Shown: piece by piece, positions 8,953 to 10,552 of the stretch
How positions within the stretch are numbered: the first letter of the stretch is position 1
How the letters are laid out: every line of letters starts with the position of its first letter
Assembly: GCF_018141405.1 (NCBI RefSeq)
Contig: NZ_CP058648.1
Location: 1,503,001 to 1,567,000, forward strand
DNA: 64,000 nt
Origin: Serpentinicella alkaliphila
GTDB taxonomy: Bacteria; Bacillota; Clostridia; Peptostreptococcales; Natronincolaceae
Reading direction: 5' to 3'
Position numbers and translations under genes: made by a program
Notes under the pieces: generated by a model
Databases searched by the model: none
Told to the model about the DNA's origin: nothing
Seen by the model: the letters and a program-made list of their open reading frames with translations, nothing else

Positions 8953-8982
8953 TTGACAAACTATTACGGGATATGATAAGAT
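8953..8982 (+). promoter_or_regulatory. Probable promoter of the pyr operon
   Basis: A perfect TTGACA -35 box is at 8953-8958. The -10 region falls in TATGATAAGAT (8972-8982), with TAAGAT at 18-bp spacing as the best fit. Transcription would begin near 8988, about 12 bases before the PyrR-binding hairpin. Confidence 0.65.
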
Positions 8983-9000
8983 TATAAAAATGCAAATAAA

Positions 9001-9031
9001 CCTTTAAATTAGTCCAGAGAGGCTAGAAAGG
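9001..9031 (+). promoter_or_regulatory. PyrR-binding RNA hairpin
   Basis: AGTCCAGAGAGGCT at 9011-9024 matches the conserved PyrR binding loop of Bacillus-type pyr leaders. CCTTT (9001-9005) pairs with AAAGG (9027-9031) as the lower stem. In known systems PyrR bound to UMP holds this hairpin. Here its 3' strand AAAGGAAG is also the best ribosome binding site for the leader ORF at 9043, so bound PyrR should block that translation. Confidence 0.85.
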
Positions 9032-9042
9032 AAGTGGAGAGC

Positions 9043-9171
9043 ATGACTATTGCTACGTGTTTTTGTTGTACTCAAATAAAAGTTAATAATTTAAATAACT
9101 TAGGCAAATGTACTTATTTAGTAGCTTTGTCTTTATTCCATTCCTTAAATAATAGGACAATAGGAGGATGA
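9043..9171 (+). CDS. Putative pyr leader peptide, 42 aa
   Basis: An ATG at 9043 opens a 42-codon frame that begins MTIATCFCCTQ and ends LNNRTIGG, with TGA at 9169-9171. AAAGGAAG (9027-9034) lies eight bases upstream. The peptide resembles no family and is rich in Cys, Asn, Leu and Thr. The coding region runs across the entire left arm of the attenuator, and the stop codon is its last three bases. A translating ribosome would thus keep the terminator open. Expression is an inference; the position of start, stop and hairpin is directly visible. Confidence 0.6.
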   Translation: MTIATCFCCTQIKVNNLNNLGKCTYLVALSLFHSLNNRTIGG

Positions 9172-9198
9172 TCGTTCATCTTTTTATTGTCCTTTTTG
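9154..9198 (+). terminator. pyr operon attenuator (intrinsic terminator)
   Basis: The left arm 9154-9171 pairs with 9176-9193 over 18 base pairs (15 Watson-Crick, 3 G-U) around a TCGT loop. A TTTTT run follows at 9193-9197. It sits 53 bases before pyrC and would stop transcription unless opposed. I see no convincing long antiterminator between the PyrR site and this hairpin. Confidence 0.9.
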
Positions 9199-9250
9199 TT
9201 TTATTAGTTAATAGCTTTATAAGAAGTACCTTAAAAGAGGAGGAAAAAAG

Positions 9251-10552
9251 ATGAAATTACTTATTAAAAATGGTAGGGTTATAGACCCAGCAACCAACTT
9301 AGATGAAATTATAGATATATTAGTAGAAAATGGGAAGATAATAAGTATAGAAAAAAATATAGAAGTACAAACGGATAGAATAATCAATGCGAATAGCCTT
9401 TGGGTTGTACCAGGATTTATAGACGTACATGTGCACTTGAGAGACCCAGGTTTTGAGTATAAGGAGACTATTGCAACTGGTGGTAGAAGTGCAGCAAAAG
9501 GTGGGTTTACTACAATCTGCTGTATGCCAAATACTAAGCCAGTTATAGATAATAAGGAAATCATAGAATATGTAAATATGAAAGCAAAAACAGAATCATT
9601 AGTACATGTATTACCAATAGGAGCTATAACTAAGGGACAGGCAGGAGTTGAGCTTGCAGATATAGAGGAAATGGTTAAGGCAGGAGTTTGCGCAATAAGT
9701 GAAGACGGAAAAACTGTAGTAAATTCAGGGTTAATGGAAGAAGCATTAAAAATCGCAGCGAAACTTAATATCCCTGTTTTATCACACTGCGAAGATCATA
9801 GCTTAATAAAAAAAGGTGGGGCAATGAACGAAGGTGACAGGTCCAGAAGACTTGGAATTACAGGGATTTCTGCAGAGTCAGAGGAAGTCATAGTTGCCCG
9901 AGATATGATACTAGCCAAAGGTACAGGGTCTAAGCTAAATATATGCCATATAAGTACAAAAGGTAGTGTGGAATTGGTTAGGGATGCAAAGAGAAGAGGC
10001 CAAAAGATTTGGGCAGAAGTATCTCCCCATCACTTCACCTTAACAGATAAGGATGTGGAGCCAAATAATACAAATACAAAAATGAATCCTCCCTTAAGAA
10101 CAGAAAAAGATGTTCAATGTATAATCGATGGATTAAGGGATGGAACTATAGATATAATCGCTACAGATCATGCACCACATCATGAAATGGACAAATATGT
10201 TTCCTATGAGCAGGCTGCCTTTGGCATAGTAGGCCTTGAAACATCGGTAGCTTTAGGCATAACTGAGTTAGTAAATAAAGGTGTGCTAAGTCCAAGTCAG
10301 CTGATAGCTAAAATGACCATTAATCCTGCTAAAATGTTAGGCATAAAAAAAGGGCAGCTAAAAGTGGGGTGTATGGCTGACATCACGATAATAGATACAA
10401 ACAAAGAATATGAGATAAATTGTAATGACTTTGAGTCCAAAAGTAAGAATTCTCCGTTCCATGGAAGAAAAGTTAAGGGTAAGGCCTTATACACCATAGT
10501 TAATGGCGAAATTGTAATGGATAACGGTAAGTTAAAAAGGGAGGATATTTAA
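9251..10552 (+). CDS. pyrC: Dihydroorotase
   Basis: It closes carbamoyl-aspartate to dihydroorotate, step three of pyrimidine synthesis. The 433-residue length and motifs fit class I dihydroorotases: DVHVHLRDPG with the zinc-binding His pair near residue 58, HCEDHS, and ATDHAPHH with the catalytic Asp near residue 305. GAGGAGG lies nine bases before ATG. It is the first full gene of the operon and its stop is one base before pyrF. No pyrB is found beside it, which is unusual; aspartate carbamoyltransferase must be encoded elsewhere. Confidence 0.97.
   Translation: MKLLIKNGRVIDPATNLDEIIDILVENGKIISIEKNIEVQTDRIINANSLWVVPGFIDVHVHLRDPGFEYKETIATGGRSAAKGGFTTICCMPNTKPVIDNKEIIEYVNMKAKTESLVHVLPIGAITKGQAGVELADIEEMVKAGVCAISEDGKTVVNSGLMEEALKIAAKLNIPVLSHCEDHSLIKKGGAMNEGDRSRRLGITGISAESEEVIVARDMILAKGTGSKLNICHISTKGSVELVRDAKRRGQKIWAEVSPHHFTLTDKDVEPNNTNTKMNPPLRTEKDVQCIIDGLRDGTIDIIATDHAPHHEMDKYVSYEQAAFGIVGLETSVALGITELVNKGVLSPSQLIAKMTINPAKMLGIKKGQLKVGCMADITIIDTNKEYEINCNDFESKSKNSPFHGRKVKGKALYTIVNGEIVMDNGKLKREDI

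Follow-up and report, generated by a model that had tools for sequence, protein, structure and literature searches.

How is the pyrC operon of Serpentinicella alkaliphila regulated, given a leader that places a PyrR site ahead of an intrinsic terminator with no antiterminator to link the two? The leader spans 8953-9250 of the window (the whole 64,000-nt stretch analysed here), which is part of a complete genome of 3.26 Mb. Comparative sequence evidence makes it very probable that PyrR-gated translation of a short leader ORF controls transcription attenuation of this operon.

The features of the locus are collected in Table 1. The original prediction had named a TTGACA promoter, a PyrR binding loop, and a 42-codon ORF whose TGA ends the left arm of an 18-bp terminator, and each of these was recovered; the TGA forms the final three bases of the arm. 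The promoter has an extended -10 region, which reads TG-A-TAAGAT, and relatives show a similar TATGATAA[CG]AT element. A terminator search of the leader returned one terminator, compared with 0.1 expected in shuffles. It had also been claimed that AAAGG of the hairpin belongs to the ribosome site of the ORF. The overlap stands: AAAGGAAGTGGAG begins with the five bases that form the 3′ side of the PyrR lower stem. Pairing by itself would mask the site only in part, however, because a weaker GGAG at 9036-9039 falls outside the stem. The start of pyrC lies ~220 nt 3′ of the PyrR hairpin and has its own ribosome site. Direct PyrR repression of the enzyme gene is thus not the arrangement at pyrC, where the masked ribosome site is not the gene's own.

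Table 1. Features of the pyrC leader and operon, in positions of the window.
Feature	Position	Strand	Details
Promoter	8953-8982	+	TTGACA 8953-8958, 18-nt spacer, TAAGAT 8977-8982, extended -10 TG; 10/12 matches
PyrR-binding hairpin (predicted)	9001-9031	+	Lower stem CCTTT 9001-9005 / AAAGG 9027-9031; core AGTCCAGAGAGGCT 9011-9024
Shine-Dalgarno region of leader ORF	9027-9039	+	AAAGGAAGTGGAG; duplex with 16S tail -14.3 kcal/mol
Leader ORF	9043-9171	+	42 codons plus TGA; MTIATCFCCTQIKVNNLNNLGKCTYLVALSLFHSLNNRTIGG
U-run then G, within leader ORF	9060-9065	+	Candidate RNA polymerase pause
Intrinsic terminator	9154-9193	+	18 pairs, 4-nt loop, T tail; left arm 9154-9171, loop 9172-9175, right arm 9176-9193
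Ribosome site of pyrC	9237-9243	+	GAGGAGG; read from sequence
pyrC (dihydroorotase), first gene of operon	9251-10552	+	Family scan of translation
pyrF, carA, carB, pyrK-like gene	3′ of pyrC		Downstream operon genes; names judged from translations

Searched with the 115-nt Rfam model RF00515, the leader scored 41.1 bits (E 2e-4), with the gathering score of 54 bits not reached. The stem-loop part of the model aligns over its entire length, and its terminator half found no fit downstream of the PyrR hairpin. The genome contains just three exact copies of the 14-mer core, one each upstream of pyrB, pyrC and uraA. Moreover, the genome has an intact pyrR (NCBIfam equivalog, E 3e-76), directly 5′ of uraA. 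Folding of the nascent RNA gave the PyrR hairpin in the window and in all 17 relatives folded, in each case with the AAGG of the ribosome site within the lower stem. Elsewhere in the window, a T-box leader is found at 641-847 (Rfam RF00230, 119.8 bits).

The frame of the leader ORF is kept throughout the family. We found pyrC in 17/20 family genomes, counting that of the window, and a PyrR loop precedes it at 16 of these 17 loci. All 16 leaders (15/15 relatives plus the window) have an ATG 16-18 nt downstream of the 14-base core, in a frame that is open to the end of the terminator left arm; the other two frames contain 2-11 stops each. In dinucleotide shuffles of the stretch from the start to the left-arm end, an open frame arose with a probability of 0.002-0.10 per leader, and the combined log10 P of -28.7, calculated with kinship ignored, overstates the independent evidence as the genomes are related. 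The 16 leaders come from about a dozen genera and differ in length and sequence. An earlier ATG (+7/+8, inside AAGGATGA) was rejected as the start, since it yields spurious short ORFs in some relatives and the position at +16 to +18 is the common one. The original prediction looked to related pyrC leaders for a conserved start, frame and stop, and was open to refutation by relatives that keep the PyrR site and terminator and have lost the frame. No such case occurs among the 16: start distance and frame are conserved in all, and it is the stop position that varies. The base of the terminator stem is conserved in sequence (GGACAATA / TATTGTCC or GAGCAAT / ATTGCTC; 9154-9193 and L117-L132), and often encodes R-T-I or R-A-I in one and the same frame.

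Of 32 leaders, 14 have their stop in the loop or the right arm and 11 have it past the terminator; in 4 it falls within the left arm, and in 3 it precedes that arm by 1-3 nt, which makes 3 nt before the arm the earliest position. Judged by these sequences, the coincidence of the TGA with the arm end is the window species' own and not a conserved rule. What is conserved is that a ribosome cannot reach the end of the ORF without covering or crossing the left arm. Such an ORF might instead mainly supply the first gene with ribosomes, through translational coupling or reinitiation. In three leaders from two families (L162, L230 and L321) the ORF crosses the terminator, and its stop shares an ATGA with the start of carA, which suggests added translational coupling there. 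As a general account this is improbable, with a stop inside the terminator in most leaders, 79 nt between the stop and pyrC in the window, and a strong ribosome site belonging to pyrC itself. Ribosome feeding could add to attenuation, not replace it.

Slightly less probable again is a classical Bacillus PyrR attenuator, with an anti-antiterminator stabilised by PyrR and an ORF that is there by accident. Both the PyrR hairpin and the terminator are there, and in the full-length minimum-energy fold the ribosome site finds a partner at roughly 9130-9147. This distal pairing stops before the left arm, however, and we rejected it as it is not conserved in relatives. A long antiterminator, reported missing in the original prediction, is indeed absent from the window: pairing of the left arm with the PyrR 3′ strand yields only -1.0 kcal/mol (z +1.4). 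The same complementarity is missing from leaders of the window's type, 24 of which have a median of -3.2 kcal/mol (z +0.26), no better than shuffled arms, and the median in the 52 other PyrR-terminator leaders is -9.95 kcal/mol. Moreover, when all PyrR-terminator leaders are tabulated, with an ORF counted if its ATG lies at +15 to +22, an ORF enters the terminator in 24/29 leaders without an antiterminator compared with 4/59 with one (Fisher 7e-13); it is missing in 5/29 of the former. The classical scheme also has no place for conservation of the frame. Rather, in leaders of the window's type it seems that the ribosome takes the place of the antiterminator. The 16/16 family frames and the missing antiterminator thus lend support to PyrR-gated leader translation as originally predicted.

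What is translated seems to be of little consequence. In eight pairs of relatives with the frame intact, dN/dS is about 0.3-1.8, and the leader ORFs range from 18 to 76 codons. Since the stop position is variable and the peptide hardly conserved, it is translation itself, not the peptide, that appears to be under selection. A functional small protein gene that chances to sit in the leader would explain the conserved frame and a start with a good ribosome site, but near-free drift, the wide range of lengths and the many stops within the terminator leave it with very little probability.

The leader ORFs share a second feature. In 20/32 leaders the opening 45 nt of the ORF contain a run of at least five U, about 35-57 nt after the PyrR core and in most cases starting at 35-52 nt. 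The 36 leaders of the direct-masking type, in which the PyrR hairpin covers the ribosome site of the gene itself, have no U-run at that distance. At ORF nt 10-40 the run is enriched, being present in 18/28 leaders where codon shuffles give 4.2 +/- 1.8; at nt 40-70 it is scarce, with 1 observed compared with 4.5 expected. All three codon phases are used (9, 7 and 4) and the base that follows is G in 13/20 cases compared with 5.3 expected; the run is therefore a nucleotide feature. An F-F/C-C protein motif near the ORF start was considered and rejected on account of the three phases. For the same reason an amino-acid-sensing attenuator, in which stalling at early Phe or Cys codons controls the terminator, is scarcely credible despite Phe/Cys codons near codons 6-10 in many leaders, and it would, in addition, have to accommodate leaders that lack such a run and leave the PyrR site unexplained. 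The U-run is a new element of these leaders. It resembles an RNA polymerase pause site at which a ribosome could load. RNA polymerase covers about 15 nt of nascent RNA, and pausing at the U-run would leave the ribosome site and start codon accessible at the right moment.

The case for PyrR-gated translation of the leader ORF is built on what is observed, namely the anatomy, the start distance and frame, the absence of an antiterminator, the positioned U-run and an intact pyrR. From these we infer PyrR binding, the action of the ribosome, the efficiency of termination and the pause. At low UMP/UTP the hairpin would not be held by PyrR, and a ribosome could load on AAAGGAAGTGGAG and trail RNA polymerase through the ORF. 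It would then sit on the left arm as the U-tract is made, blocking the terminator, and pyrC and the genes after it would be transcribed. At high UMP, PyrR would clamp the hairpin over the ribosome site and leave the ORF untranslated, in which case the terminator would form and transcription would stop. With the ribosome site only partly paired, much of the blocking would have to come from bound PyrR itself. Codons and peptide would matter little in such a scheme; translation of the arm would count. With the U-run ~20-30 nt into the ORF, polymerase probably pauses just as the ribosome site emerges, and this may let either the ribosome or PyrR bind before the terminator is reached.

Lastly, we followed the layout beyond the pyrC leaders of the family. 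We scanned 391 genomes of the class, 247 of the order and 299 of the phylum with a covariance model of the PyrR loop and retrieved 120 sites; genes 3′ of the leaders listed next were named from translations. The ORF-terminator layout is found before carA in the family itself (L176, L202), in other families (L162, L230, L231, L232, L249, L257, L309, L320, L321) and in one genome of another class (L327), before pyrB (L281, L282), and before pyrC in a Vallitaleaceae genome (L037). The leaders outside the family show spread and are not an independent test, because they were recognised by their ORFs. The tests proper are the family set and the two-by-two table, and all counts share ancestry. Five leaders (L193, L208, L226, L233, L287) have an ORF together with a strong antiterminator, and these ORFs were judged to be due to chance. 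The same judgement was reached for four phylum sites flagged by the ORF test (L332, L335, L341, L343), which have strong antiterminators.

PyrR leaders of other kinds were seen as well. In the window's own genome, the pyrB leader (L001 1484-1560, G000:C1:403385) and the uraA leader (L003 1490-1575, G000:C1:2075894) each carry an anti-Shine-Dalgarno strand after the PyrR hairpin, with two alternative pairing partners, the hairpin 3′ strand and the gene's own ribosome site. By sequence, both are candidates for a PyrR-controlled translational switch. Roughly 40 leaders of the pyrB/uraA type in the order and class show a similar trio of hairpin, anti-Shine-Dalgarno strand and ribosome site. Tandem PyrR sites precede uraA in L024, L027, L028, L029, L033 and L035 (around 1501-1760), with a classical terminator/antiterminator unit first and an anti-Shine-Dalgarno switch unit after it. 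In 36 Clostridia leaders (for example L149, L157, L159, L163, L172, L242) the 3′ hairpin strand doubles as the ribosome site of uraA, pyrB or another first gene, which is the direct-masking type.

Several known systems share parts of this arrangement. A PyrR-controlled leader peptide was reportedly proposed for the Thermus pyr cluster. That anatomy is also the one found in the window, with the PyrR site over the leader ribosome site and the ORF across the terminator, and in both cases high pyrimidines would block leader translation. The leaders described here differ from that proposal in being from Clostridia, before pyrC, carA or pyrB, and in having comparative support for the frame together with a positioned U-run. 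In mycobacteria, direct masking by PyrR (translational repression) is said to have been shown. There, as here, the PyrR hairpin would overlap a ribosome site, but in our case the masked site is that of the leader ORF, not the enzyme gene, and the output would be transcription termination. Comparative evidence for a PyrR-gated leader ORF was not found in the literature searched.

E. coli pyrBI is not known to involve PyrR, and its gate is UTP-dependent polymerase pausing alone; the window leader differs in having a PyrR site. What the window shares with leaders of this kind is a leader ORF with its ribosome site and a frame entering the terminator. Translating ribosomes suppress the pyrBI terminator via translation of pyrL (PMC5021804), and a U-rich leader and coupled leader-ORF translation across a terminator, here predicted, to prevent termination are common to both. 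The Bacillus standard, as given in PMC4347634 (citing Lu et al. 1996), is PyrR attenuation by an anti-antiterminator. From that account, the B. subtilis PyrR attenuators share with the window a PyrR hairpin, an intrinsic terminator and a pyrimidine nucleotide signal, and differ in the antiterminator, in whose place we propose the ribosome. The B. subtilis vmlR leader is likewise a Firmicute leader with pausing (here a candidate) and a terminator, but responds to translation inhibitors and, as far as the account in PMC9226507 goes, without PyrR.

PyrR and its hairpin would thus feed at least four outputs in one class of bacteria: an antiterminator switch, direct ribosome-site masking, an anti-Shine-Dalgarno switch and a leader-ORF attenuator. 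Leader-peptide attenuation has rarely been shown in Firmicutes (attenuator survey, PMC2965389). Moreover, coupling in clostridia is not a given, because RNA polymerase outruns ribosomes in B. subtilis, which is held to be functionally uncoupled (PMC7858274). The logic of the leader needs a ribosome close behind RNA polymerase, and such leaders may therefore be natural reporters of coupling in clostridia. Polymerase may pause at the U-run, and the pause may respond to UTP as at pyrBI. A two-sensor attenuator is a tentative extension that we hold to be possible but on balance doubtful: PyrR would control whether ribosomes enter, and a pause at the U-run, sensitive to UTP and located where the polymerase has just released the ribosome site, would time their loading. 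If true, it would combine the pyrimidine sensing of Bacillus and of E. coli in one leader, and would enforce transcription-translation coupling in a phylum where coupling is doubted.
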